This document shows positions 16,720-34,413 of a stretch of DNA of 64,000 bases, piece by piece. Within the stretch, counting starts at the first letter, position 1. Each line of letters opens with the position of its first letter. Source of the DNA: Bryopsis sp. KO-2023 (Eukaryota; Chlorophyta; Ulvophyceae; Bryopsidales; Bryopsidaceae); the NCBI GenBank assembly GCA_030272585.1, contig BSYQ01000007.1:1430001-1494000 (forward strand), read 5' to 3'. Below the pieces are notes generated by a model. The model was not told where the DNA came from and searched no databases. It saw only the letters and a list, made by a program, of their open reading frames with translations. The position numbers and the translations under genes are program-made.

Positions 16720-17575
16720 TAATCGAGGGGGGAGTGCAATGAATTGAGAAAAGATTGCAGGAGACTGAAGGGAATTGAAATTGTGTTTGACTGCCCTGAT
16801 TCTGAGAGCTCCTCCTCTTTGTTTTGGAAATCGTAGAATTGTATTTTTAGCTTTGAGGATGTAATCCACCGGACAAGAGCTGTTTGTTTCAATGTTTGTG
16901 GTGCCTTCGTTTTTGTGTCAAATTCCACCGAACCAAACTCCCATCGGATCGACAATCATCAAACATCAATCGGATTTTCGAAATCAGCACACCACCAAGG
17001 TGCCACCCACCGTGCATGCTTTTTTTTCCCCTCTTTTGGACTGCTTCAGGAATTCCTTTTTTGTCTCCCCCCCCCTTCTCCATGCCCTGGCCATGCACCC
17101 AAGCCTGGTTTTGCCCACCGGAAAAAATAAGAAGCTTCTTTCTCTCGCTCAACTCAGGTGGACTGGTGCTCTGTGGCCACCACATTTCCACACACCACAC
17201 TTTGGGACCCTGGAAGGTGGCTTGCTGCTTCACAGGTCGGTCGGACATGGCTGCCCATGTTCACAAATCCAATCTGTGTGGCCTCTCCGGCTCGCCTCCC
17301 CTGGTTGACTGACGTCCGCGTTTCATGCCAGACTGAACGACTCGTTGAGGGTGTGCTTCCATCCAGGGAACAGTGCATATGGTAGCCTCATCATCATTGG
17401 GCTGGGACACCTGGCGCGCGCTTGCTTCACTCGCGAGAGGGCTTTGGGGATCCCACGGAGTCGCGTCGACCATCTCCCTACATATTGCGCCCTGGAAGCG
17501 TCGTGTTCAGAAACGTTTGCGATCGTCTTTCCTCTTCGAAAGCAACAACAACAACTGCTGCTGCATTCGTCGAGC
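16720..17575. promoter_or_regulatory. GRP1 upstream region with modules shared by the GRP genes
   Basis: No gene is seen. The stretch holds blocks repeated upstream of other GRP genes. One, about 16915-17015, ends in CACCACCAAGGTGCCACCCA and recurs at about 20898-21003. An 82-bp block at 17201-17282 recurs at 21124-21205 with two mismatches. A proximal block at about 17405-17575, including CTCCCTACATATTGCGCCCT, recurs just upstream of GRP2. The proximal block probably contains the core promoter and 5' leader. Confidence 0.55.
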
Positions 17576-18161
17576 ATGGTCAAAACTCTGGCTGGTCTGC
17601 TCCTGTTCGCTCTCGTGGTCGCTGCCGCGCAAGCTTCCTTCGCAGGTGAGCCTGGCGTCGCACTTCGCAGTCGCTCTGACTTCGGCTTTAGATTTGGCCT
17701 CTGGCTGAACCGACCGTGCCTTGGCGTGTGTGTGTGTGTTTTTGTGCGTGCGTGTGTTCCAGACAAGCGTCGTCTCCTCGCTGAATTCGAACATGGAGGA
17801 AGAAACGGAGGTTGGCGTGGAGGCGGCGGCGGAGGAGGTGGGGGTGGAGGAGGAAAATACGGAGGTGGTGGCGGAGGCGGCGGAGGTGGTGGTGGAGGAG
17901 GAGGAGGAAGAGGAAAACGAAAAAGTGGTGACAGAAAAAGTGGGTGCCTGAAAAGTGATGTCCACCACGCCTTCCGCACCAGATGGGCCTGTTTTTGGTG
18001 ACTGGATTTGTTTTCGCTGTGCAGTGAGCCGCATGCTCCTGAGTGGAGGTGAAGGTGGGGGCGGTGGTGGTGGACCAGTAGCTCCCCCCGTCGGTGCCCC
18101 TGAAAGCGACAGAAAACGTCGTTCGGTGGTGGAGAAGAGTGTTGCTGATTGGCTCGATTGA
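17576..18161 (+). CDS. Secreted glycine-rich protein, GRP1
   Basis: Exon 1 (17576-17645) encodes a clean signal peptide (MVKTLAGLLLFALVVAAAQA, cut probably after QA or SFA). Exon 2 starts at 17762 with DKRRLL and runs into long glycine blocks broken by KYGG and WRGG. Exon 3 starts at 18025 with an SRMLL motif, a short Gly block, then a charged tail ending KSVADWLD. The donor of intron 2 is ambiguous: three AAAAGTG sites in the same phase lie within the KSGDRKSG stretch. The protein is probably extracellular (wall, scale or matrix). Glycine-rich wall proteins are one comparison, but I recognise no exact family. GRP1 has fewer and shorter Gly runs than GRP2 and GRP3. Confidence 0.7.
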
Positions 18162-18774
18162 TCAATTGTTCTGTGGATGCGCTTCCTCGCACAGTAGTGT
18201 GTGAGCGCCTGGAGGTTTCCCTGTTTCTATGTTGGGCCAGAACGGTCGCCCAATCAAGCCCCTTGGATGAATTCATTTGTTTTAGTACGGTAGTGAGCAC
18301 CACAATATTGTAAGGGTTGATCGTTTTGCGACTTGGATCGCCGGCTGCTTTTTTTGAGTGCTTTCTTTCCACACACTGGGTGGCACCCAACCCACACACA
18401 CATTCACCAAACCACAGCATGAAACCACAGCATGAAACTTGATTCTCTGCAGATTATTTCAGGTGACCGGGATCATTGAAACAGGAAACGATGAACCAAA
18501 TCCTCCCAGAATTCCAGAACCAGCCAGGTTCACAGAATATTTTTTTCATTTTTTTTAGTGTGGAGGAAAACCACATTCAAGAAACCTTTCATGAAATATC
18601 ATGTCGACACGTCCATCCCACAACTGACTCCATATATTCCCTGGCTACTAGCCTATAGTATAGGTATCGAACGCGCCCCCCCCTCTGTGGAATCCTGGAT
18701 CCCCCCCAGGACTCCCAAGGTGGTGACGATTTTCCTTGACAATCGTCAGTCGACAAAGCATCCACCTAAATCCC
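18162..18774. other. Spacer between GRP1 and the duplicated block
   Basis: No exon is recognised. The sequence after GRP1 (18180-18300) resembles that after GRP2 (20520-20690), for example GTGTGAGCGCCTGGAG against GTGCGAGCGTCTGGAG, which suggests that the 3' flanks were part of the older GRP duplication. C runs lie at 18677-18685 and 18702-18710. Confidence 0.4.
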
Positions 18775-19877: not shown

Positions 19878-20493
19878 ATGGTCAAAACCGTGGCTGCTCT
19901 GCTCCTGCTCGGCCTCGTGGTCGCTGCCGCGCAAGCTTCCTTCGCAGGTGAGCCAGGCGTGGCACTTGGCACTCGCTGTGGCCGTGGCTTCGCCCTTGCC
20001 TTCGGCGTTTCTTTTTTTGGTGCCTGAACGAAGCGTGCCTTGTGCGTGTGTTCCAGACGAGCGTCGTCTCCTCGTCGCAGGTGAAGATGGAGGCAAATAC
20101 GGAGGTGGTGGCGGCGGCGGCGGAGGCGGAGGAGGTGGGGGTGGAGGAGGGAAATTCGGAGGTGGCGGCGGAGGCGGCGGGGGTGGTGGTGGAGGAGGAG
20201 GAGGAGGAGGACGACGACGAAAAAGTGGCGACAGAAAAAGTGGGTGCCCGAAAAGTGACGTCCACCACGCCTTCCACACCAGATGGGCCTGTTTTTTAGG
20301 TGACTGATTTTGTTTTCGCTGTGCAGTGAGCCGCATGCTGCTGGCAAGAGGCGGCGGTGGCGGCGGCGGTGGAAGTGGCGGTGGAGGTGGAGGAGGAAAG
20401 TTCGGAGGTGGGGGTGGGGGCGGGGGCGGAGGCGGCGGCGGAGGTGGAAAACACGGAGGTGGTGGCGGTGGCGGCGGAGAAGACTGTTGCTGA
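19878..20493 (+). CDS. Secreted glycine-rich protein, GRP2
   Basis: Exon 1 (19878-19947) encodes a signal peptide (MVKTVAALLLLGLVVAAAQA). Exon 2 starts at 20057 (DERRLLVAGEDGGKYGG) and is followed by two long glycine blocks split by KFGG, ending RRRKSGDRKSG. Exon 3 starts at 20325 (SRMLLARGGG) and has glycine blocks split by SGG, KFGG and KHGG, ending EDCC. An R-x-L-L motif at the start of each mature exon is shared with GRP1 and GRP3. The intron 2 donor is one of three in-phase AAAAGTG sites. Exon 2 starts inside the sequence TTCCAGACGAG, which is the exact empty target of the retrotransposon found in the duplicate copy. Mature protein: extracellular, structural by composition, function unknown. 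Confidence 0.72.
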
Positions 20494-22291
20494 TTGGTTG
20501 GTGATGATCAGCCCAATTGCTGTCGATGCGGCTCCTCACACAATAGTGTGCGAGCGTCTGGAGTTTATTCCCTGTTTCCCTGTTGGGCCGGCCAGAAGGA
20601 CGGCCCAACCAACGAAGCCCCTTTCATTTGTTTTAGGGTGGTAGTGAGCGCTGCACTGTAAGGGTTGCGTGTTTTTGGTGTTTTGTTCCTGTTTTTATGG
20701 TGCTTTTTTGGAAGACACGTTCGTCGGATCGCTTCCAGGGGTCGTTGAAACAGGAGACAATCAACCAAGGCCTCCCATAACTCCGGCCGGCCAGCCGGCC
20801 AGCCAGTTCCACAGAATCGGCCTGTTTTCCCGTGTGAGGGATCACATCCCATTCAAACCACCCATGCATCCCACAACTGACTACCCCAACCAGACCAATT
20901 CGAATTCCGCCAAACCAAAGTCCCAACGAATCGACGATCATCAAACATCTGGCCCAAACCAATCGGATTTGCGAAATCAGCACACCACCAAGGTGCCACC
21001 CACCCCTTCTTTTCGAGACTGCTTCCTTTTTTGTCCCCCTCCTCCATTGTCATGCCCCAAGCCTGGTTTTACCAAACCAGAAAAATACAAGTGTGCTCTT
21101 TCGTTTGCCCAACTCGAATAAAATTTGGGACCCTGGAAGGTGGCTTGCTGCTTCACAGGTCCGCCGGACATGGCTGCCCATGTTCACAAATCCAATCTGT
21201 GTGGCACCTGGTTGACTGGCGGTTGTTGACGTCAGCGCTTCATGCCAGACTGACTCGCACCGCTGGCCGGTCAGGGGTGAGTGTCGGGCCAGCGGTGTGA
21301 TGTGTTGTTATCAGCCGAACCTAAAGTGTGAGCAAACGGGAAGGAAGGAAAGCCAAGAAAATGTCTGGATAGAAAGAGCTATCAAAAGTAATACAAAAGC
21401 AAAGTAGGAACTCAAGGTACCAGGCAGAATGCAGCAAAAGAAGAAGAGGTCTTGGGGTTTTTGAAGCAAGTTACATATGGAATTGGTTTTCACATGGATC
21501 GTGGAGAACAATTCTGACCGGGTCCGTAGAGTGGATCGTCGCGACTAGGATTACGATTCGGCGGGGGTACGAATCCTACTCTCCACATTTTTTTCATTTT
21601 CACACAACAAAGAGCACCATCCCTGCAGAAGCAGCCCTCAACCTGCCTCGTCTTCTGCAGTCCTTCTTTCAAACGAAGTCGAAGAGTTCAACAAAATTTT
21701 GTGCGTGCTGACGTAAGGTTCACTGTTGAAAACATCATCAACTGGTCGTTTTTTCTTCAAACACACTCACACCTGGCTGGCACCCCGGCTGGTTCGTTTC
21801 ATTTGCGGCGCTCTTCGCTTCAACCCCCTCCCTCCCGCCCCAGGTGTTCAGATATCGTCTCTCAACCCTGGGGTGCGTTTCGATTCAGAAGAACCTCTCG
21901 ATGGCGGCGTGATCACGTGGCATCTTTGTGTGTGCACCGAAAAATGAATTGGCAAGTTGAGGTCATGTTTCTGCAACTGGCTGTGTGGGGTGTTGGGAGT
22001 TGGGTTGAAACATGGGCATCCAGATCTGGAAATTTCCACAAATGTCACACCTCCCATTCCTGGGATGAAGCCAGCACACATGAATCAATGATCGCATCAC
22101 ACATAATGCGGACATATGGCAAGAACCAGTTGGGCGCTTGGTGTTGGGATGCGACTCGGAGGAACGAAGCGTCGTGTCCACGTGGGGCTTGCTTTCCCAC
22201 AAATGCACGGGCCCTCAGCCACGCTCCACAAAAAAATCGATCCGACGATTGCTTCCATCCAGTACAGCGTTCTTGAGAGAATTTGTCAGCA
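20494..22291. promoter_or_regulatory. GRP2-GRP3 spacer and GRP3 upstream region
   Basis: Noncoding. It includes the 82-bp block shared with the GRP1 upstream region (21124-21205), a TTGACGTCAGCG motif near 21225-21236, CCGGCCGGCCAGCCGGCCAG near 20791-20810, and a tRNA-like hairpin at 21501-21586. A 191-codon open frame at 21701-22276 is kept in the duplicate but reads through promoter-like sequence and has no recognisable domain. Confidence 0.45.
21501..21586 (+). ncRNA. tRNA-like hairpin with Pol III-like signals (possible tRNA relic)
   Basis: A perfect 7-bp outer stem (GTGGAGA with TCTCCAC) closes 86 nt. Inside is GGTACGAATCC, one base from the tRNA B-box GGTTCGANTCC, and GTAGAGTGG, which resembles an A-box. 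Directly after the stem is A followed by seven T, a typical Pol III stop. A second internal stem pairs TAGGATT with AATCCTA. The distance from the stem to the A-box is about 14 nt too long, and no proper anticodon arm can be drawn, so this is not a standard tRNA. The duplicate copy at 30639-30724 looks identical. Confidence 0.25.
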
Positions 22292-22883
22292 ATGATGAAG
22301 GCCGCAACCGTTGTTCTGCTTATCGGCCTGGTCGTGGTCGCAACCAATGCTGCTCCTGACGGTGTGTCTCAGACTTCTGGTCGGCTCGCTCGCCGCGCGC
22401 TCAATTTCTGGTCTTCAGTTGGAGGTTGATTGGCGCGCCCGCCTGGGTTTTCTCATCGAATGCAGATTTCGCCGTGACACACCCGAGCCGTGACTTGCTT
22501 GGCGGCGGAGGAGGAGGCGGAGGAGGCGGAGGAGGTGGTGGAGGCGGTGGAGGCGGGGGCCACTGGAAATGGGGAGGAGGCGGCGGCGGCGGTGGCGGCG
22601 GCGGCGGAGGTGGAGGAGGTGGTGGAGGCGGAGGCGGAGGCAAGAAATGTAAGGATGAGTTCGCTGGGTCACCTGTGTAACGAACATTAGTTTCAAGGCT
22701 GCTTTAAACGACGGGGTGTGTGATGCAGTGCGTAAGCTTCTTGGCGGAGGCGGTGGTGGTGGCGGAGGCGGCGGCGGCGGAGGCGGCGGAGGTGGGGGTG
22801 GAGGAGGGAAATTCGGAGGTGGCGGTGGCGGCGGAGGTGGAGGTGGAGGTGGAGGAGGGGGCGGCGGGGGTGGCCGCAAGTAA
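22292..22883 (+). CDS. Secreted glycine-rich protein, GRP3
   Basis: Exon 1 encodes MMKAATVVLLIGLVVVATNA, a signal peptide. After intron 1 (donor ACGGTGTGTC) exon 2 encodes DFAVTHPSRDLLGGGG, two long glycine runs split by HWKWGG, and ends GKK at the donor AAATGTAAGG (near 22648). Exon 3 starts LRKLLGGGG at about 22729, has glycine runs split by KFGG and ends GGRK. The R-x-L-L motif opens both glycine exons. The mature chain is almost all glycine with rare Lys, Phe, Trp and His. Paralogue of GRP1 and GRP2 with the same three-exon plan. The start uses the first of two adjacent ATG codons. Confidence 0.75.
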
Positions 22884-24422
22884 TCGTCGATTTCTGATGT
22901 GAATGTATTTGGTCGTGTTTGTACTGTATTTTGGAGTACTTGGTTAAAACTTGTTCGGGAATATTTTTTCAGGCGTTGTGGACAGTAGGATCAGTTTTAC
23001 GTTCTGCTGTCACATTTCTGACTGAAGGCCAACCAACCTTGCTAGCAACCTGTGATATAGGAATGTAATGTAATTGAATTGAACATTGCAAGAACCTGGA
23101 GGACTGCAATTGCAGTCATTGTGAGGCATGGTGGCGTTCGTTCGCACGTATTATTCACATCTAAATCCAAGATTGCGTAGTTACATAACGGTGTGCTTTC
23201 CAGTGGCCACCATGGATGCACCTTTTGTCAAAAAAAAACACAAATTTTCGTGTTGAGGTCTGGAGGCCAGCCTGGATGGGTCGTCCACAGGGTTTCGGTG
23301 TCACAGCAAGGAGGCCTCCCAAACCAACCCCTGATCTCTAAAAACTGCAAAACCGTGCTGTCATTCACAGTACGAATTATCGCAATAATACAAATACAAT
23401 AGAGGGAAAAAATGTGTGAAAAACACCTCAGCAATATGACAATCCCAAAAAAGAAAACCCCATGTTTCCAAGAAATTGCCTGTGAAAAAAAAAGAAAAAC
23501 AAACCAGAAGAGGAGAGGAAAAAAGTTTGGGAGAAAACCCTCAGCAAAATGGCAATCCCCAAAGAGCCCTTATTTTGTTTCGCACTTGAATTCATTCTCC
23601 GCAATCTCTTCACCGGATTCAAGGTGCCACCCACCGTGCATGCTTATCGTTTTTTTCTTCTTTTCGAAATTCCTTCCTTTTCTGTCCACTGCTCCATGTT
23701 CAGGCCATTTGCATCCCAAGCCTTCCGCTTGGTTTTGCCCACTGGAAAAAAATGAAAGAAGCTTCTTTCTTTCACTCGACTCAGGTGGACTGATGCTCTG
23801 TGACCACCACCATTTCACGGGTCAGACGGGACGTCATGCTGCAAGGGAGTCAGCCAGAGTGGGGATCACGGGGCTGAGTGACAGACTGAGTGACAGACTG
23901 ACCAAAAAAGCAACCCACGCACGATGAACCTGCTGCAATCACTCCTCAATGATTGATCATTGCTACATGGCACCGTGTGTTTTGGGAGTGCAAATGAGAA
24001 GGGGGGAATCGAGTTGAGTTGGGCGTCAAGCCAGCAGTGGAGTACCCCCGGATCAGATTTTCGCTGGTGTGGGTGCAAGGGCTGAAGAGGCAAATTGTTG
24101 TCTCATTCGACCAAGCAGAGCTTCCAGACGCACACACAACCGAACATATATATATAACAACCACCGAACCAGAGCAAAATTCGAACAAACAAACTACAAA
24201 CTACTTTAGCCTCATCATCATCATCATCATCGTCATCCAAAAATCGGGCTGGCACACCTGGCGCGCGCTTGCTTGGCTCGCGAGAGGGCTTTGGGGATCC
24301 CACGGAGTCGTGTCGACCATCTCCCTACATATTGCGCCCTGAAAGCGTCCTGTTCAGAAACGTTTGCGATCGTCTTCCCTCTTCGAAAGCAACAACAACA
24401 ACTGCTGCTGCATTCGTCAATC
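22884..24422. other. GRP3 3' flank, duplication junction and GRP2' upstream region
   Basis: 22884-23319 follows GRP3 and holds no exon I can support. The tandem-duplication junction is at 23319/23320 (GAGGCCTCC joined to CAAACCAACC). 23320-24422 repeats 18775-19877 base for base as far as I could compare, including the upstream modules of GRP2. Confidence 0.6.
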
Positions 24423-24603
24423 ATGGTCAAAACCGTGGCTGCTCTGCTCCTGCTCGGCCTCGTGGTCGCTGCCGCGCAAGCTTCCTTCGCAGGTGAGCCA
24501 GGCGTGGCACTTGGCACTCGCTGTGGCCGTGGCTTCGCCCTTGCCTTCGGCGTTTCTTTTTTTGGTGCCTGAACGAAGCGTGCCTTGTGCGTGTGTTCCA
24601 GAC

Positions 24604-25089
24604 TGTGACCTGCATTTTAAGGGTCTGTGGCAGGAGAAGGGTCCAGCTCCTCTTGCAGTACTGGGAAGGACGTTCAGAAGTCCTGCTTATGTTATCAGAA
24701 ACAGTGAAACTTAGGAAACAGTACTCAGTATTTCTCACTGAGTACCTCCAATTTATAAGGGTTGGTAATAGTTAATAAAGGGTAGTTGGGTGAAGCTAGG
24801 GTATTAGAAATGGGTAGCTACGGGGTAGCTACTTTGTACAAATGAGTAGCTAAGAAGTGGCTCTTTTACCCTATAAGAGAAGGGGGTTTTTATTCTTCCT
24901 TGTAACCACTTTTTGTTCATGTTCGACTTGTGCCTCAGTCTCCACGCTTTTGGTCGTCCAAAGCTCTTGTATTCCGACCTCTCACCGAGCTCTCCTAGTT
25001 GAAACGATAAAGGGTATAAGGTTTTCGATTTGCAGCGTTTCCTGCTAAGAAACACCTGACCCATCGCCTGCAAGGCGCACCCAAAGGAT
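24604..25089 (+). repeat. 5' LTR body
   Basis: This 486-bp repeat matches 28698-29183 with no difference seen. It starts TGTGACCTGC. It contains repeated GTAGCTA units near 24813-24853, AATAAAGG near 24775 (a possible polyadenylation signal) and TATAAGGGTT near 24755. The next bases, TGGTTTCGGAGCCAGG from 25090, begin with TGG as a tRNA primer-binding site would. Confidence 0.9.
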
Positions 25090-25166
25090 TGGTTTCGGAG
25101 CCAGGTTACAGCGTTCTGGAGAACTTAAGTTTTCGTGGGAGACTACTCCAAAGACTACAAGGAAGA

Positions 25167-27137
25167 ATGGCGGGGATACCATCACCATCTCTGGATAAGA
25201 TATGTCGATATGAGACTATTACTTCCAGAAATTTCCGGTATACGTTTCAGCGCTCAAGGATCTACGCGACATATCAGCAGTTCTGCGCATCAGTGGTGGA
25301 CCACTATGTCCCAGAAGGACCCGGAGAGAATATTTTGGCAATACTGTACGAAGTTAACAATGTTCTGATGGCCGACTTCGACGCAGCGTATCCTCCAGGA
25401 TCACACGGGAGGCCCGCAGCTTCTCCAGCAGCAGTGGCTGGAAATATTGATGCGTTAAAGATGAACGTGGCAGGATTTCTCGTAACGGAAAGAGCTATCT
25501 TGGAGAGTCCTTCAGAAAAGGAAGCAGTCCTTCGCAAATGTGTCAAGAAAAAGGGGCAAACGTGGCTGCAGTGGATCGAGCAGTTTCGCCAAGAAGCAAT
25601 GGCAGTGGAACAGGATGTGGATGATGCGAAAATAAAAGAAATTTTCTTCAAACTACTTCCAAAGGATTGCAGAGTCGGAACGGCAGCAATGGTGACTGCC
25701 ACATACGTAGACGCCATCGCAAACGCAAAGGAATGGATCATCAACGTGTTTCGCCTCGAAGATACAACAGCGAAACTCCAAGGGGACGCGATGGACATTG
25801 GAGCCGTAGGAGAAGCGATGGGCAGTACTGCAACAGCAGAAACGGAAACACCTGTGAGACAGGGAGATATGCCGCCAACTGATTGGCAGCAGAAGCTAAA
25901 AGAGGTACCATTCGGCTCGCTCAAGTTTTTCATCACTCAATTGAGCAAGAGAGACAGAAGATTTCGTGGATTTTTGAGCTGGTTGGCCAGAAACGGAAGC
26001 AGCGGAAATGCAGGCAACAGTGGTTCCAGAAACACTGGAGGATACAGGAGAAGTGGTACACCATATCGTGGAATGGCCGCAAGAACGGTCCAATTCGAGG
26101 AACCCCATTTCGAAGATCACAATGATTTTGAGGGATTGGAAGAAGAAGACCTCTACCAACCCGAGACAAACTATGTCGGGACTATCTCGGTTGCATCTGT
26201 GGAGAAAGTGCCAACGAAGAAGTGGAGGAAGTCTGAAAGAACGCAGTACCGCCAGAGCAAAACTGCTACAGGACCCAAACAAAAGAAGATTCCCAAATCC
26301 ACCGGATGCGGAGGAATCACGACAAGCAAAACTTACAAAGAAGTATTGACCGTGGGGAGATCAGCAGGACTGCTTACCACCAAAATGTCCCTTGTATCCA
26401 CTGCTGCCGAGAGCGTGGAGGAATTTGCAATCATCGACACGGGAGCCGCGGTGAATGTGATGTCTTCCGGATTGGCAAAGAGATTGGGAGTCTCGCCGAC
26501 ACAAGAGGGAGGACCCGGCAAGATAAAAACTGCTGATGGCAGGACTGTGGAAACCGAAGGCAGCATTTCTTCCATCAAGATAGGCACCGAGGGGAAGAAG
26601 GTTTCCGCAGATTTTTATGTGATGAAGGAGCCCGGCTATGAGTTATTGGTTGGAATGCCGATACTCAACTCCTTGAACGCGGTTATTGATGTACGGAGGA
26701 AGAGGATCAGTATCGGATCCGGAAAAACGCTGCAGTGCATGGTAACACGGTTGCCAGAAGAAGTGGTTCTTCCAGAAAGAGAACCAGTGGAAGGAGAAAG
26801 CCTGGATCTCACTTCTGCCAAGCGTCACTTGAAGATAATCAACGTTGCCGAGAACTACTATTCAGTGCCGCTGGGGAGAAATCTCGTCCTTCGACCTCAC
26901 TCGTTGTCAACTGTGTGGATACCTATCAAGGCTTCCAAGGAAATCGAGTTGAAGCCAGTAGTGCCAACTGGGAGCAGTATCGCCATCCATGCCGGACTTA
27001 ATTATCGCGGGCAGTATTTCCGCGTGCAGATAGGGAACTGGAACGAGTTACCAGTGCAGTTGCCGAGCAATTACAAGGTTGCAACCTTTGCTCACGAAGG
27101 GGTGGTCAAGTTCAATGACCGAGAGGTATCAAACTAA
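25167..27137 (+). CDS. Retrotransposon Gag-protease polyprotein
   Basis: This 656-residue frame starts at the first ATG, MAGIPSPSLDKICRYE; the frame stays open upstream to the LTR edge. Residues 1 to about 330 are Gag-like: a helical capsid region with RKCVKKKGQTWLQWIEQFRQ and KEIFFKLLPKDCR, then Gly/Asn/Arg-rich linkers. No CCHC zinc knuckle is seen. Residues about 395-540 are a retropepsin-type aspartic protease: FAIIDTGAAVNVMS with the catalytic DTGA, then a flap-like region and YELLVGMPILNSLNAVIDV. About 140 further residues follow (NYYSVPLGRNLVLRPHSLST and onward), of a kind often found between protease and RT. The stop TAA at 27135-27137 is followed within 3 nt by a hairpin. Confidence 0.9.
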   Translation: MAGIPSPSLDKICRYETITSRNFRYTFQRSRIYATYQQFCASVVDHYVPEGPGENILAILYEVNNVLMADFDAAYPPGSHGRPAASPAAVAGNIDALKMNVAGFLVTERAILESPSEKEAVLRKCVKKKGQTWLQWIEQFRQEAMAVEQDVDDAKIKEIFFKLLPKDCRVGTAAMVTATYVDAIANAKEWIINVFRLEDTTAKLQGDAMDIGAVGEAMGSTATAETETPVRQGDMPPTDWQQKLKEVPFGSLKFFITQLSKRDRRFRGFLSWLARNGSSGNAGNSGSRNTGGYRRSGTPYRGMAARTVQFEEPHFEDHNDFEGLEEEDLYQPETNYVGTISVASVEKVPTKKWRKSERTQYRQSKTATGPKQKKIPKSTGCGGITTSKTYKEVLTVGRSAGLLTTKMSLVSTAAESVEEFAIIDTGAAVNVMSSGLAKRLGVSPTQEGGPGKIKTADGRTVETEGSISSIKIGTEGKKVSADFYVMKEPGYELLVGMPILNSLNAVIDVRRKRISIGSGKTLQCMVTRLPEEVVLPEREPVEGESLDLTSAKRHLKIINVAENYYSVPLGRNLVLRPHSLSTVWIPIKASKEIELKPVVPTGSSIAIHAGLNYRGQYFRVQIGNWNELPVQLPSNYKVATFAHEGVVKFNDREVSN

Positions 27138-27171
27138 AAAGGCCCGTCGAAAGGGGACTTCGGGCGGGCCT
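27119..27171 (+). promoter_or_regulatory. Gag-pro/pol junction: frame overlap plus hairpin
   Basis: The pol frame is in the -1 frame relative to gag-pro and is open from 27119, overlapping the end of gag-pro by 19 nt. A hairpin at 27140-27171 pairs AGGCCCG with CGGGCCT and, inside, CGAA with TTCG. It starts 5 nt after the last sense codon (AAC). Position fits a frameshift stimulator or a reinitiation structure. A canonical X-XXY-YYZ slippery heptamer is not present, the nearest being TCAAAC, so the mechanism is open. Confidence 0.45.
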
Positions 27172-27199
27172 GACTAGATCCGAACAAGAAAAAGAGTCC

Positions 27200-28702
27200 A
27201 TGGTGGAAGCGCTGAAAGAAATGGTGAGGAAACACCCGGAGGTCTTCGGGACTCTAGTACCTCCGCAGAAGACTAAAATGGCGGAAATGGCAGTATCGCT
27301 GGAGGAATGCGGCTATAGGAGAGAGCCGCCGAAGTCAAACGTCCCTCAAAGGAGTATTCAAGACCAGCGATTATCCGAAGAACAAGTGCAGAAATGGCTA
27401 AAGGAACAAGTGGAGCTCGGGTTCATTGAACCGCTGCATCGGAAGGACTACCCTCAAGGCGTATACTGGAATCCATCTCAGATAAGCTACTGCGAAAGGA
27501 GAAAGGGGCCAAGACCGATCATAGACTTCAGGAAGCTCAACACCTACGGCAGCGATGAGCATCAACCGGGCATTCAGGACGCAAGAAGACTCGTGAGATC
27601 GATTCCAAGGAAATGGAAATACTTCATCGTCGTGGATGTAGCCAAGGCATACAATAAAGTGCCGATAAAGAAGGAGGTCAAGGCACTAACGGCGTTCAAA
27701 GTGGGGAGCAAAGAGTTCGTCAATAGCACCATCCCCCACGGTACTTCTTGGTCCGTTAGAGTATTCAACGACAAGATGTGCCGTGTATTCGAAGGTTTGG
27801 AAGAGTTCCGCCGTTACATGGATGATCTGCTCATTGGCGGCGCTACTGTGGAGGAGTGCTTCCAGAATTTCGAAAAGGTCGTTTCTCGATGCAAGGAGTA
27901 TGGACTTCAGATCAACCAGAGGAAAATCGTCAGCGGAACTGAGGTAAAGTTTCTCGGATTCCATATCCAAGAAGGAAAATTCCACCCGGATATACCGTGG
28001 GAAAAAGTGAACGAAACTATTGCCAAGCTGGTGGGATCGGCAGAACTGCGGGAGATTCAGCAGCTCCGCGGTTTGCTGAATGCTTTCAAGAACTCGACTC
28101 TGGAATGGGACATGCAGCATTTCTTGGCTAAGATGGAAGCCAATCAAGTATCGCCACAAGAGGTAAAGGAAGAACTGAAAAGTAAGGTATCGCGTTGGTT
28201 GAGTCGTTGCTATTGCCGAGCATTTTCTGCCGGCGATAATCAAAGGAAGCTGTTCGTTGATTGGGCTTCTATTGACACCTCAGAGTATTTCGGGTATATT
28301 TTGACCGATGGTTCGGGAAGGATTTTATACCTCGGACATGGAAAAATAAGTGGACAACATTCAAGTTTTTTGGGGGAAGTATTGGCAGCCATGAGCGCCG
28401 TTAAGGAAATACCCGCAGATTTGTGGAGAGGAACTGCTGTTCAGATTTTCTCCGATAATTGGGCAGCAGTGAAAAGTTTATGGGCACACCTTACCCAAGA
28501 GGGGAAAGAGGCAGCACCGATTAAAGATTTGAGAACTTTGCGAGCAGTAACGGGAATCAAAGAAAATTTGCAGTTCAGCGGTTGTTCAAGTATCTCCGTA
28601 AGACACATAGATGGGAAAGCCAATTTTGTTGCAGACCATCTGAGTAGATGGTATGAAATTCGGAGTACTTCACAGTGGAAACGAAGTGGGTTACAGCTGT
28701 GA
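27200..28702 (+). CDS. Retrotransposon reverse transcriptase-RNase H
   Basis: 500 residues from the first ATG; by frameshift the product could begin at the junction. RT motifs in order: GPRPIIDFRKLN, FIVVDVAKAYNKVPI (first catalytic Asp), NSTIPHGTSWSVRVFND, and FRRYMDDLLIGG with the YMDD box, then LGFHIQEGKF and a connection with LRGLLNAFKN. RNase H follows: LFVDWASIDTSEYFGYIL (Asp), FLGEVLAAMSAVKEI (Glu), SDNWAAVKSL (Asp) and HIDGKANFVADHLSRW (His/Asp). All RT and RNase H catalytic residues appear intact. The frame ends at TGA inside the first bases of the 3' LTR. There is no HHCC or DDE integrase sequence after RNase H. Confidence 0.93.
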   Translation: MVEALKEMVRKHPEVFGTLVPPQKTKMAEMAVSLEECGYRREPPKSNVPQRSIQDQRLSEEQVQKWLKEQVELGFIEPLHRKDYPQGVYWNPSQISYCERRKGPRPIIDFRKLNTYGSDEHQPGIQDARRLVRSIPRKWKYFIVVDVAKAYNKVPIKKEVKALTAFKVGSKEFVNSTIPHGTSWSVRVFNDKMCRVFEGLEEFRRYMDDLLIGGATVEECFQNFEKVVSRCKEYGLQINQRKIVSGTEVKFLGFHIQEGKFHPDIPWEKVNETIAKLVGSAELREIQQLRGLLNAFKNSTLEWDMQHFLAKMEANQVSPQEVKEELKSKVSRWLSRCYCRAFSAGDNQRKLFVDWASIDTSEYFGYILTDGSGRILYLGHGKISGQHSSFLGEVLAAMSAVKEIPADLWRGTAVQIFSDNWAAVKSLWAHLTQEGKEAAPIKDLRTLRAVTGIKENLQFSGCSSISVRHIDGKANFVADHLSRWYEIRSTSQWKRSGLQL

Positions 28703-29190
28703 CCTGCATTTTAAGGGTCTGTGGCAGGAGAAGGGTCCAGCTCCTCTTGCAGTACTGGGAAGGACGTTCAGAAGTCCTGCTTATGTTATCAGAAACAGTG
28801 AAACTTAGGAAACAGTACTCAGTATTTCTCACTGAGTACCTCCAATTTATAAGGGTTGGTAATAGTTAATAAAGGGTAGTTGGGTGAAGCTAGGGTATTA
28901 GAAATGGGTAGCTACGGGGTAGCTACTTTGTACAAATGAGTAGCTAAGAAGTGGCTCTTTTACCCTATAAGAGAAGGGGGTTTTTATTCTTCCTTGTAAC
29001 CACTTTTTGTTCATGTTCGACTTGTGCCTCAGTCTCCACGCTTTTGGTCGTCCAAAGCTCTTGTATTCCGACCTCTCACCGAGCTCTCCTAGTTGAAACG
29101 ATAAAGGGTATAAGGTTTTCGATTTGCAGCGTTTCCTGCTAAGAAACACCTGACCCATCGCCTGCAAGGCGCACCCAAAGGATGGTTACA
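28698..29190 (+). repeat. 3' LTR with terminal heptamer GGTTACA
   Basis: The body 28698-29183 equals the 5' LTR. It is followed directly by GGTTACA (29184-29190) and then the right target duplication. In the 5' LTR the same heptamer comes only after a 14-bp insert. Immediately before this LTR is GGTTACAG, so the internal junction reads GGTTACAGCTGTGACC, the two element ends placed head to tail with 2 bp between. Confidence 0.88.
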
Positions 29191-29631
29191 CCAGACGAGC
29201 GTCGTCTCCTCGTCGCAGGTGAAGATGGAGGCAAATACGGAGGTGGTGGCGGCGGCGGCGGAGGCGGAGGACGTGGGGGTGGAGGAGGGAAATTCGGAGG
29301 TGGCGGCGGAGGCGGCGGGGGTGGTGGTGGAGGAGGAGGAGGAGGAGGACGACGACGAAAAAGTGGCGACAGAAAAAGTGGGTGCCCGAAAAGTGACGTC
29401 CACCACGCCTTCCACACCAGATGGGCCTGTTTTTTAGGTGACTGATTTTGTTTTCGCTGTGCAGTGAGCCGCATGCTGCTGGCAAGAGGCGGCGGTGGCG
29501 GCGGCGGTGGAAGTGGCGGTGGAGGTGGAGGAGGAAAGTTCGGAGGTGGGGGTGGGGGCGGGGGCGGAGGCGGCGGCGGAGGTGGAAAACACGGAGGTGG
29601 TGGCGGTGGCGGCGGAGAAGACTGTTGCTGA

Positions 29632-31429
29632 TTGGTTGGTGATGATCAGCCCAATTGCTGTCGATGCGGCTCCTCACACAATAGTGTGCGAGCGTCTGGA
29701 GTTTATTCCCTGTTTCCCTGTTGGGCCGGCCAGAAGGACGGCCCAACCAACGAAGCCCCTTTCATTTGTTTTAGGGTGGTAGTGAGCGCTGCACTGTAAG
29801 GGTTGCGTGTTTTTGGTGTTTTGTTCCTGTTTTTATGGTGCTTTTTTGGAAGACACGTTCGTCGGATCGCTTCCAGGGGTCGTTGAAACAGGAGACAATC
29901 AACCAAGGCCTCCCATAACTCCGGCCGGCCAGCCGGCCAGCCAGTTCCACAGAATCGGCCTGTTTTCCCGTGTGAGGGATCACATCCCATTCAAACCACC
30001 CATGCATCCCACAACTGACTACCCCAACCAGACCAATTCGAATTCCGCCAAACCAAAGTCCCAACGAATCGACGATCATCAAACATCTGGCCCAAACCAA
30101 TCGGATTTGCGAAATCAGCACACCACCAAGGTGCCACCCACCCCTTCTTTTCGAGACTGCTTCCTTTTTTGTCCCCCTCCTCCATTGTCATGCCCCAAGC
30201 CTGGTTTTACCAAACCAGAAAAATACAAGTGTGCTCTTTCGTTTGCCCAACTCGAATAAAATTTGGGACCCTGGAAGGTGGCTTGCCGCTTCACAGGTCC
30301 GCCGGACATGGCTGCCCATGTTCACAAATCCAATCTGTGTGGCACCTGGTTGACTGGCGGTTGTTGACGTCAGCGCTTCATGCCAGACTGACTCGCACCG
30401 CTGGCCGGTCAGGGGTGAGTGTCGGGCCAGCGGTGTGATGTGTTGTTATCAGCCGAACCTAAAGTGTGAGCAAACGGGAAGGAAGGAAAGCCAAGAAAAT
30501 GTCTGGATAGAAAGAGCTATCAAAAGTAATACAAAAGCAAAGTAGGAACTCAAGGTACCAGGCAGAATGCAGCAAAAGAAGAAGAGGTCTTGGGGTTTTT
30601 GAAGCAAGTTACATATGGAATTGGTTTTCACATGGATCGTGGAGAACAATTCTGACCGGGTCCGTAGAGTGGATCGTCGCGACTAGGATTACGATTCGGC
30701 GGGGGTACGAATCCTACTCTCCACATTTTTTTCATTTTCACACAACAAAGAGCACCATCCCTGCAGAAGCAGCCCTCAACCTGCCTCGTCTTCTGCAGTC
30801 CTTCTTTCAAACGAAGTCGAAGAGTTCAACAAAATTTTGTGCGTGCTGACGTAAGGTTCACTGTTGAAAACATCATCAACTGGTCGTTTTTTCTTCAAAC
30901 ACACTCACACCTGGCTGGCACCCCGGCTGGTTCGTTTCATTTGCGGCGCTCTTCGCTTCAACCCCCTCCCTCCCGCCCCAGGTGTTCAGATATCGTCTCT
31001 CAACCCTGGGGTGCGTTTCGATTCAGAAGAACCTCTCGATGGCGGCGTGATCACGTGGCATCTTTGTGTGTGCACCGAAAAATGAATTGGCAAGTTGAGG
31101 TCATGTTTCTGCAACTGGCTGTGTGGGGTGTTGGGAGTTGGGTTGAAACATGGGCATCCAGATCTGGAAATTTCCACAAATGTCACACCTCCCATTCCTG
31201 GGATGAAGCCAGCACACATGAATCAATGATCGCATCACACATAATGCGGACATATGGCAAGAACCAGTTGGGCGCTTGGTGTTGGGATGCGACTCGGAGG
31301 AACGAAGCGTCGTGTCCACGTGGGGCTTGCTTTCCCACAAATGCACGGGCCCTCAGCCACGCTCCACAAAAAAATCGATCCGACGATTGCTTCCATCCAG
31401 TACAGCGTTCTTGAGAGAATTTGTCAGCA
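29632..31429. other. Duplicate GRP2-GRP3 spacer
   Basis: Copy of 20494-22291 at offset 9,138. It keeps the 82-bp block at 30262-30343, with one further substitution visible (GCTTGCCGCTTC against GCTTGCTGCTTC), and the tRNA-like hairpin. No independent gene is seen. Confidence 0.6.
30639..30724 (+). ncRNA. tRNA-like hairpin, duplicate copy
   Basis: Second copy of the 86-nt structure described at 21501-21586, with the same GTGGAGA/TCTCCAC closing stem, B-box-like GGTACGAATCC and downstream T run. No difference from the first copy was noticed. Confidence 0.22.
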
Positions 31430-32039
31430 ATGATGAAGGCCGCAACCGTTGTTCTGCTTATCGGCCTGGTCGTGGTCGCAACCAATGCTGCTCCTGACGG
31501 TGTGTCTCAGACTTCTGGTCGGCTCGCTCGCCGCGCGCTCAATTTCTGGTCATCGCTTGAACACGCAGTTGGAGGTTGATTGGCGCGCCCGCCTGGGTTT
31601 TCTCATCGAATGCAGATTTCGCCGTGACACACCCGAGCCGTGACTTGCTTGGCGGCGGAGGAGGAGGCGGAGGAGGCGGAGGAGGTGGTGGAGGCGGTGG
31701 AGGCGGGGGCCACTGGAAATGGGGAGGAGGCGGCGGCGGCGGTGGCGGCGGCGGCGGAGGTGGAGGAGGTGGTGGAGGCGGAGGCGGAGGCAAGAAATGT
31801 AAGGATGAGTTCGCTGGGTCACCTGTGTAACGAACATTAGTTTCAAGGCTGCTTTAAACGACGGGGTGTGTGATGCAGTGCGTAAGCTTCTTGGCGGAGG
31901 CGGTGGTGGTGGCGGAGGCGGCGGCGGCGGAGGCGGCGGAGGTGGGGGTGGAGGAGGGAAATTCGGAGGTGGCGGTGGCGGCGGAGGTGGAGGTGGAGGT
32001 GGAGGTGGAGGAGGGGGCGGCGGGGGTGGCCGCAAGTAA
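31430..32039 (+). CDS. Secreted glycine-rich protein, GRP3 duplicate
   Basis: Intact second copy of GRP3, with the same signal peptide (MMKAATVVLLIGLVVVATNA), R-x-L-L motifs and three exons. Differences from the first copy: intron 1 has 12 more bases (CATCGCTTGAACACG region near 31551-31567), and the last glycine exon has one extra GGTGGA unit, adding two glycines. Both lie in regions prone to change, and the reading frame is kept, so the copy is probably functional. Confidence 0.72.
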
Positions 32040-34413
32040 TCGTCGATTTCTGATGTGAATGTATTTGGTCGTGTTTGTACTGTATTTTGGAGTACTTGGT
32101 TAAAACTTGTTCGGGAATATTTTTTCAGGCGTTGTGGACAGTAGGATCAGTTTTACGTTCTGCTGTCACATTTCTGACTGAAGGCCAACCAACCTTGCTA
32201 GCAACCTGTGATATAGGAATGTAATGTAATTGAATTGAACATTGCAAGAACCTGGAGGACTGCAATTGCAGTCATTGTGAGGCATGGTGGCGTTCGTTCG
32301 CACGTATTATTCACATCTAAATCCAAGATTGCGTAGTTACATAACGGTGTGCTTTCCAGTGGCCACCATGGATGCACCTTTTGTCAAAAAAAAACACAAA
32401 TTTTCGTGTTGAGGTCTGGAGGCCAGCCTGGATGGGTCGTCCACAGGGTTTCGGTGTCACAGCAAGGAGGCCTCCAGCCTCGAAACAGCCAACCAACAGC
32501 CAACTCCACCAACCAACCAGAAATCATGCAAGACATGCCAGGCCAGAGCCTATAGCATCGGGGGAAACACACCCCAAAAAATAGGACAATTCAATTTAAT
32601 TCAAAAACAAGACAAGAAATAAAATATTACAAGACAGGCCAGGCGCAGAGCTAATAAGCGAGTGAGTGCCCCACAAGTGAGTGCGCTTGTCTCGAAGAAG
32701 GTATGCTATGACAAAAGCATACTTTTCGCTTGACGCAAACGCCCCCCCCCCCCCCCCGGGTTCTGTACTCCCCTTGTTTTCGTGAGGAAGCACACGTGTG
32801 CGCCCGTTACGTAGGCAGGATCCCAACAAGACTTGCCCGATCGAGGCAGTAAAAGAAGTCTGCAACAACCTGACCTTTTGCAAAAGGGAACATTTGAAAG
32901 CGATGGCTTCTGCACATTGTAATTATTGGCTGTTGGGATAGCTTGGCCTTTAAAATAATCAGCCAAAAATTTTTTCCAGCTGTGATGGCAGAAGCACTTT
33001 CAGCCTGTGTTGGATTGACTCAGATGTGATCCCAGAAACATTTCTTTGGATTGACAGGAAAAAACAAAACTCTCTACTGCCCACCTTGAATCTCAAACAA
33101 AAAATCTTACAAAGGCAAGAAAGCTCAACAAAATCAAGTCTCCTTTCAACCACTTCATCCACTTCTTCTTCTCCACATTGTCTCACAGCTGCACACTGCT
33201 GCTTGAACTCTTTGTTGAACAATACACCAGCCCAGACTCCCCCAGCAACAGAGAGAAAACTACATCGCCAAAACGGAACAACAATTGTTGCAAGTGTTTG
33301 AGAAACGAAAAGGAATCAAGGTCCCACGAGTTACACCACGACCAACGACGTCGTGATCGACCAACGAAAAAAGAAAATTATGGAAATGAAAGCCCACACG
33401 ACCAGGACTCTAGCCAGTTGGATCGCTGAACCAACTTCGCGCTGAGTCGCGCAACGAGGCGCACATGTCCGATCTGCCATTGATATTGTGAGTTGTGTTG
33501 GGTTTTTTTTGGACGGTTACTGGTAATGACGGTTGCGTGCAACGTTTGCGATCAGTTGTGTTAACGCCAGTTAGTTATGATTGATGTCAGTGAAAAAGGG
33601 GTCCGAAGTCCTTCCATTCGGCGAGGTGAAAATAGTGGTTGACCACCCTGGCTGGTGTGGTCTACCTGAGATAACATCGGGGTGGTGCGCCTTGAGGTTC
33701 GCTTCGGCTTGAGCTGAAAATCGGTTGCTCATCCCGTTGAGGGAAAGCCACTCGCTTTTTCACGATGTGCTTGAAAACTGGCGTTTGGGCGAGCTTGGTG
33801 TAAGGAAGGAGGCCTCCTCAGTTCGAGAACGATCGTGTGCGTTCTTTTGGTCGTTAACCGTCTGTGCTTAAGACCTAGCCAGGTTTCCTACAGACGCTCG
33901 CCTCGCTGAACAGAATTCTTTTTGTGGCGAAAAGCCAAGGTGGGAGTCGCGAGTCTATTCTTCCAGCGCGTCGCTGACTGGTGAGTGAACGCTGCGAAGT
34001 TGGTTTTCCTGCAATGGGGCAGTTTTTTCTCGTTGCGACACAGATGGTCGGATTTCTCGCTTCGCTGTGTCGAAAGACGTCTTTCGACACATCATGTAGA
34101 TGCGATTGTGGACGAGGTGAAGAAACGTGGTGAAATTCGAACGGATGGAGAAGAGGTGAAGTGTGCATGTGGTGGGGTTCTCAGTCAGGATTTGAAACCC
34201 GTTCTGGAACCGGCTTTCGATTTTTTTTCGAGATAACAATAACGAAGCAGCAGTGGGGTTGGATAGGGTGTGTGTGTGTTATGGAGCTCGATTTTTGGTG
34301 GGTTTGATTGCCTTAATACAACATGAGTGTTTTGGAACCAGGCTTTTTTTGGTGCCAGCAAGTTACCTCAATGTCTTTTGCTTTTTTTTCTTTCTCATCT
34401 GCAAACAGCAGTA
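32040..34413. other. Intergenic region after the duplication
   Basis: 32040-32475 is the end of the duplicated block; 32476-34413 is unique sequence. It holds a 16-17 nt C run at 32742-32758, a Ser/Thr-rich open frame at 33026-33301, a GC-richer stretch at 33480-34250 and a perfect 26-nt palindrome at 34066-34091. CTGACTGGTGAGTG near 33973-33986 looks like a splice donor, so a 5' exon could lie here. I could not recognise a protein or RNA family. Confidence 0.35.
34066..34091. repeat. Perfect 26-nt palindrome centred on GACGTC
   Basis: Each arm is 13 nt (TGTGTCGAAAGAC and its exact complement) with no spacer. The centre is GACGTC, the core seen in several promoters of this window. It could be a dimer-binding site or part of an unrecognised inverted-repeat element. 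Confidence 0.8.

Follow-up and report, generated by a model that had tools for sequence, protein, structure and literature searches.

In the green alga Bryopsis sp. KO-2023, a clade of LTR retrotransposons retains reverse transcriptase (RT) and RNase H and lacks a recognizable integrase. We think it probable that these elements copy themselves, borrow an integrase in trans and integrate through the junction of a two-LTR (2-LTR) circle. The anatomy of the elements, their copies and target site duplications (TSDs), the ends they share with an integrase-bearing Ty3/gypsy family (the partner), the tRNA match and the co-variation of two short sequences, B1 and B2, are observed directly; the integrase supply, the circle and the plus-strand start we infer. 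A sequence-only reading of the same DNA had proposed an integrase from a partner element or an unusual insertion route, and the evidence points to both without proving either: the genome contains an integrase-bearing family whose termini, primer site, TSD length and target preference are the same, and the right end of the element bears the mark of a circle junction.

The element and its coding capacity

The window analysed here is the 64,000-nt stretch C7:1430001-1494000, and the genome searched comprises 91.09 Mb in 28 contigs. The LTR retrotransposon previously recognized at 24604-29190 is real, and its limits are exact by TSD, LTR identity and an empty site. Its features are the following, in window coordinates.

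24598..24603, no strand: left copy of the 6-bp TSD, CCAGAC (direct repeat at 100%)
24604..25089, plus: 5' LTR (A1), TGTGACC...GGAT, 486 bp, by LTR comparison
25090..25107, plus: primer binding site, 18 nt complementary to the host tRNA-Met(CAT) 3' end plus CCA
25104-25110, plus: GGTTACA again, straddling the primer-site end
25167..27137, plus: gag-protease, starting at the first in-frame ATG of a frame that is open from 25020
about 26427-26669, plus: protease (PF13975)
27128..27137, plus: A UCA AAC UAA at the gag-pro end, a possible -1 frameshift region
27119..28702, plus: pol frame (RT, RNase H; no integrase), stop codon inside the 3' LTR
about 27503-27967, plus: RT (PF00078), YMDD at 27815-27826
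about 28244-28651, plus: RNase H (weak PF13456, conserved residues)
28677..28688, plus: purine-rich tract GGAAACGAAGTG, ending at the B1 start; putative plus-strand primer
28689..28697, plus: B1, GGTTACA and the 2-nt spacer GC, immediately 5' of the 3' LTR
28698..29183, plus: 3' LTR (A2), same as A1 (486/486)
29184..29190, plus: B2, GGTTACA, the right terminus, not in the 5' LTR
29191..29196, no strand: right TSD copy
20053..20058, no strand: empty target site, CCAGAC, in the neighbouring tandem copy of a host gene

The LTRs, which had been described as visually identical, match at 486/486 bases, and the 6-bp target duplication was borne out by CCAGAC on both flanks. The empty-site paralogue matches the left flank at 1059/1059 bases and the right flank at 999/1000. 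Overlooked until now were bases 29184-29190 (GGTTACA), which lie outside the 5' LTR sequence. TG...CA ends and a TSD of the Ty3/gypsy 4-6 bp kind are present, the CA being supplied by B2 and not by the LTR proper. Caulimoviridae-like pararetroviruses are not known to have LTRs or to leave a TSD on integration; the window element has both, and this candidate was rejected. The host gene is present in tandem copies with a unit of about 4.5 kb (about 17300-18500, 20000-24600 and 29190-32300), and its product begins with what resembles a signal peptide and goes on with long glycine-rich stretches. The insertion site (window 24493-24603, 29184-29200) resembles the 3' splice site of the first intron of a host gene. 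The acceptor AG is part of the TSD CCAGAC, so that a TTACACCAG acceptor is re-formed on the right side of the element, and the element might be removed by splicing along with the host intron.

Both open frames described by the sequence-only reading, Gag-protease and RT-RNase H, were found again, in a -1 relation to each other. Pfam recognizes the protease (PF13975, E 4.9e-12) and the RT (PF00078, E 1.9e-21) of the window element and, weakly, its RNase H (PF13456, E 0.076). Across four aligned pol proteins, the residues of catalytic type in RT and RNase H do not vary, including the RNase H D, E, D and D that had already been visible by eye. Neither frame of the window element contains an rve domain at E<=1, its gag-pro hides no integrase at the same threshold, and the gag of L043 and L044, which represent two diverged lineages, has no integrase domain at E<=0.1; a RexA match in these two lineages (E 0.028) fell under its own cut-off and was disregarded. 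A tyrosine recombinase domain is likewise absent from the window element (E<=1) and from L043 and L044 (E<=0.1). RNase H does abut the 3' LTR, as had been noticed: the third base of the LTR is the first base of the pol stop codon. Integrase 3' of RNase H, a Ty3/gypsy trait, is thus missing in the window element, as it is in its copies, L043 and L044. The gag-pro frames of relatives end in A AAA AAC UAA and G GGA AAC UGA, compared with A UCA AAC UAA here. Set against Ty3/gypsy elements, the order gag-pro-RT-RH, the tRNA primer, the LTRs and the TSD are alike, whereas the integrase is absent and a terminal B2 has been added.

The primer site is complementary to host tRNA-Met(CAT) at 18/18 nt in the window element, in the L026 copy and in the partner, and at 12-14 nt in L024, L043 and L044; this match fixes the U5 end independently. 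ARAGORN read the tRNA gene as tRNA-Met(cat), and its GGG/CCC anticodon stem makes it look like the initiator. Self-priming from the LTR was rejected, as one 7-nt match was obtained in one of six LTRs tested (with the LTR ends of the window and L049 trimmed a few bases off) and the tRNA fits instead. The tRNA-Met genes stand in regular arrays near contig ends (C5:6912072-7047807, C9:5578813-5671152, C10:5077324-5128482), spaced by about 11 kb on C5 and C9 and about 25 kb on C10, and are perhaps part of a larger tandem repeat.

Copies, diverged lineages and the RT tree

A search of the genome with the pol protein, in which 82 of 1549 candidates were scored and counts are lower bounds, returned at least 22 full-length copies, 93-100% identical and without stops; the remaining matches are fragments or other families. 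We examined 8-kb loci around 20 of the other 21 copies (L021-L040; without C3:7938256), which makes 21 including the window. At all 21 loci, the junction GGTTACAGC/TGTRACC overlaps the pol end at an equal offset. Perfect 6-bp TSDs flank 17 of the 21 copies, none being obtained for L029, L034, L036 and L039, and A1 is identical to A2 in 16 of these 17, L028 differing at one base. The overlap in every copy and the identity of A1 and A2 indicate that the lineage has been active very recently, in agreement with the earlier reading, and that integrase is missing at the level of the lineage. A window-type LTR was not found in any integrase-bearing element, all 10 places found being elements of its own subfamily, and no relatives were found on viral contigs. 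In the protein database, with about 8000 candidates scored in each search, there are at least 6 weak relatives of pol, at least 13 for the four-row profile and at least 4243 for the partner RT. One window-type copy (L022 1098-5686, 6-bp TSD CACGGC) has inserted into the RT frame of a gypsy element from a second subfamily resembling the partner.

The pol proteins of L043 and L044 are 44-45% and 38-39% identical to that of the window, respectively. Their layout is that of the window element, gag-pro followed by RT-RH in the -1 frame, and the LTR begins about 65-80 bp after RT-RH, with no integrase found. In an RT tree of 20 rows, the four integrase-less rows form one group at 100/98. Closest to them are L048 and P0007, both RT-RH-INT, and the six group together at 98/93; the partner RT lies on the opposite side of the tree, which has a midpoint root only and in which P0007 is on a long branch. 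The sequence-only reading had suggested placing the RT among Ty3/gypsy, DIRS and related groups; the part of this that stands is the grouping with two RT-RH-INT proteins, in a tree without named DIRS or gypsy reference RTs. The simplest history would be a single integrase loss preceding the split of the integrase-less lineages.

Non-autonomous LTR elements are common, and the RT sister L048 carries integrase, as might be expected if the elements described here were simple deletion derivatives of an integrase-bearing parent, briefly amplified by that parent. Copies with an integrase would have pointed this way according to the reading, which had recommended looking for them; the check was run, and integrase is present in 0/21 copies read and in neither the L043 nor the L044 elements. 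The ends also match a different RT lineage, the loss is common to three diverged lineages, and the copies read retain long open frames. We consequently disfavour such derivatives as improbable and retain an integrase-less clade as the better description.

In the L043 and L044 lineages the ends read TGTATC/TGTTTC...GAAACA, and a 5-bp TSD (GGTAC, TGACT, GTACC) flanks all three of their copies with both ends read. Because this length differs from the 6 bp of the window lineage, it suggests another integrase. A candidate donor for the 5-bp lineages is the rve match at C2:776983 (459-aa frame), situated between two L044-like LTRs 3.4 kb apart. When the L048 integrase served as query (123 of 1491 candidates scored), neither C2:776983 nor the other GAAACAGTTGTTTC sites were among the matches listed. 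Four gag-protease relatives of L044 (C2:6869269-6870867, C9:2205937-2207523, C2:504711-506348 and C5:3147317-3148900), three of them with a GAAACAGTTGTTTC junction 1.5-2.2 kb downstream, have no RT of the integrase-less clade among the 82 scored pol matches; they are candidates for further clade members or donors.

The right end and its joints

Ordinary LTR elements finish on the right with the end of U5, the sequence that adjoins the primer site. The integrase-bearing relative L048/L049, a control of a single copy, reads AACAACA/TGGTTTCGG at the 5' LTR and AACAACA/CTTG at the right end; it has ordinary CA-ending LTRs, a 4-bp TSD (CTTG) and no B2. The integrase-less elements have a 5' LTR that ends GGAT (or TTTGT, TTTGG) immediately before TGGTTTCGGAGC, and in the window lineage the right LTR has GGTTACA appended, which the 5' LTR lacks. 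At the inner side of the 3' LTR, the window element reads GGTTACA-GC-TGTGACC, a near-palindrome. B2 equals the local B1 minus its 2-nt spacer in three versions, GGTTACA(GC) in the window, GGCAAGAAACA(GT) in L043 and GGACTGAAACA(GT) in L044, and all three elements carry the split direct repeats A1-B1-A2-B2. Because the GGCAA part of GGCAAGAAACA falls outside the inverted arms, palindrome selection alone is insufficient to account for B2 = B1. B1 starts at GG directly after a purine-rich tract (GGAAACGAAGTG in the window, GAAGCGAAGTG in L043, GGAAACGAGGTG in L044 and AGGGAGGAGGGGAGT in the partner). A similar tract is common to all three integrase-less lineages, and from it the start of B1 would be the expected start of the plus strand. 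With B1 at the plus-strand start and the U5 end defined by the tRNA, B2 would lie exactly at the position where the ends join in a 2-LTR circle.

The mechanism that we favour concerns a clade in which gag, protease, RT and RNase H persisted but integrase was lost. Reverse transcription would be primed by host tRNA-Met, presumably with the element's own enzymes, and plus-strand DNA would begin 9 nt upstream of the LTR (13 nt in L043 and L044), at the GG with which B1 opens, to give a linear cDNA of the form B1-LTR...B1-LTR. Joining of the cDNA ends would create U5/GGTTACA-GC-TGTGACC/U3. A DDE integrase acting in trans would then cut after CA on both strands of the near-palindrome, with loss of the 2-nt spacer and insertion at a 6-bp stagger; for the window lineage its likeliest source is the abundant Ty3/gypsy family that ends in the same motif. 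Cut in this way, the circle junction would leave the right LTR ending in the local B1 sequence. The same junction would also arise in a linear head-to-tail dimer.

Could B2 instead arise without a circle? Integrase may act in trans on linear cDNA, with B2 added in reverse transcription by template switching or end repair that copies B1, or by a slip over the GGTTACA of the primer site. The 39 right ends tallied (21 window lineage, 12 partner, 3 L043 type, 2 L044 type and 1 nested non-coding element in L036) include 35 exact joints, a regularity greater than end joining might yield. Two joints have an extra T (L059 and the L036 pol copy) and two an extra A (L044 and the nested element in L036); the U5 end was borrowed from sister copies for L029, L036, L039, L068, L070, L072 and the partner ends except L047. 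The primer site was seen in 18 copies, and in 12 of them, the window included, GGTTACAGC straddles its end 14 nt past the 5' LTR; this recurrence of GGTTACA also speaks for linear cDNA, and in these 12 copies alone B2 might be thought a 14-nt skip at the primer site. However, the six others (L023, L024, L027, L034, L035, L040) have no GGTTACA there and still end in it, and in the partner, L043 and L044 the primer site is likewise free of a B sequence, although the right end of each is its own B. Moreover, no template puts B1 beside the tRNA-defined U5 end in a linear cDNA. The extra T is the base that a retained terminal A (A76) of the tRNA would template. The four joints with a single added base resemble end joining, which fits them better than templated copying. 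We therefore consider the linear route unlikely and prefer the joining of cDNA ends in a circle. The nested element (L036 146-3684) is 3.5 kb long, in reverse orientation and without a sense frame >=150 aa; its ends, primer site and split repeats are those of the window lineage and it has a 6-bp TSD, so that it is apparently a third, non-coding user of the common integration ends.

PAT/Ngaro retrotransposons, which encode a tyrosine recombinase, have split direct repeats A1-B1-A2-B2 as well (PMC4157794, in part). Here, B is only 7-11 nt with a 2-nt spacer. The same repeat layout, together with tyrosine recombinase genes in the genome (at least 18 matches), could be taken to mean that our elements insert by a tyrosine recombinase. 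PAT/Ngaro elements are not known to make a target site duplication, as opposed to the 17 perfect TSDs among 21 copies; a DDE enzyme is indicated by the TG...CA ends and by duplications of 6 bp or 5 bp that are clean and occur at a variety of targets, and the element has no tyrosine recombinase domain at E<=1, which renders this route extremely improbable. Circle joining followed by DDE cutting has a counterpart in foamy virus, whose integrase reportedly cleaves the palindrome at a 2-LTR junction and removes no more than the nucleotides that separate the two CA ends (PMC1180852, in part). The LTR-LTR junction with inverted ends and the loss of 2 nt between CA ends are alike here; the foamy virus proposal rests on mutants and biochemistry, whereas in the present elements bases of the left end stand on the integrated right end itself. 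HIV-1 integrase has reportedly been found, in one paper, to cut a palindromic retroviral sequence (PMC1905944). Whether 2-LTR circles are integration precursors has been argued over since the 1980s, a matter that the foamy virus work took up again (PMC1180852).

A partner with integrase and the wider meaning

Where, then, could the integrase come from? In the genome, GGTTACAGCTGTRACC is matched 128 times forward and 131 times in reverse, with a perfect palindrome counted twice; the reversed control of this pattern has no match. From an rve search (150 of 1443 candidates scored), we considered 18 matches of one rve group on C1-C5: in 17 of them a palindrome site lies 3.4-3.9 kb away, downstream and on the matching side, and in the remaining one at 1.2 kb. 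Two members of this partner family were read; both have RT-RH, and the integrase frame measures 1169-1184 aa (rve E 3.9e-14, H2C2 E 1.3e-12). At L042 1824-5375, the integrase frame runs several hundred residues further without a Pfam match at E<=0.1 and has a hydrophobic stretch and a cysteine-rich end. The split repeats of the partner are alike, with a 531-bp A1 before the primer site and an identical A2 followed by GGTTACA; this 531-bp LTR pair may not be one insertion, because its flanks (TGCGCT, CACGGG) differ. Nine more partner LTR pairs were read, out of 40 places listed: seven have a perfect 6-bp TSD, L066/67 agree at 5/6 bases and L050/51 is an LTR-LTR junction. At L041 1252-1600, an LTR and primer site are fused directly to the middle of an RT gene, apparently a gag-deleted gypsy derivative such as template switching would make.

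The partner and the integrase-less lineage have in common the terminal motif, the 18-nt primer site and the 6-bp TSD length, and the TSD centre is YR in 15/17 integrase-less copies and 7/7 partner pairs. The first 39 bp of the partner LTR are identical to the L026 subfamily at 35/39 positions (90%) and to L024 at 82%, with no further similarity to either beyond them at E<=1e-3. Between the LTR of the window element and that of the partner, the terminal motif is all that is shared, and the 10 places where the window-type LTR was found all belong to its own subfamily; for these reasons, the immediate donor for the window subfamily may be another gypsy subfamily.

Our criteria for cross-mobilised LTR elements were taken from wheat, where borrower and donor share the primer binding site (PBS) and LTR termini and trans enzymes are inferred for RLG_Quinta/RLG_Cereba (PMC11302176, in part) and for RLG_Sabrina and RLG_WHAM/RLG_Wilma (PMC9744471, in part). 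The Quinta-type partner trait, a PBS and LTR termini shared with an autonomous family, is present here, the window subfamily sharing a short terminal motif only. As described in these parts of the two sources, the wheat borrowers are without RT and integrase, whereas the clade here lacks integrase only, keeps RT and RNase H, and has an RT of another lineage than the donor's. Among the known borrower LTR elements that we found in the literature, RT is lacking as well as integrase, and the top-ranked papers contained no integrase-less, RT-bearing Ty3-type clade and no split repeats with DDE-type TSDs. A still broader proposition, in which a stable integrase-less clade switches donors (6-bp TSDs with TGTRACC ends in one lineage, 5-bp TSDs with TGTWTC in two) and its genomic copies record obligatory DDE integration from a 2-LTR circle junction, seems to us evenly poised between right and wrong.

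Finally, we would like to consider what such elements mean for the biology of LTR retrotransposons. Copying and insertion, the two halves of the life cycle, would here fall to different lineages, and the loss of integrase has outlasted divergence to about 39% protein identity. The right ends suggest a route via a DNA circle, one usually doubted for this class of jumping gene. B1 acts as a sequence tag, expected on the left end of the linear cDNA and found on the right end of integrated copies; because it marks the two forms in this way, new insertions and extrachromosomal DNA offer a direct reading of the circle-precursor question, and the integrated elements would be a genomic record of 2-LTR junction cutting.
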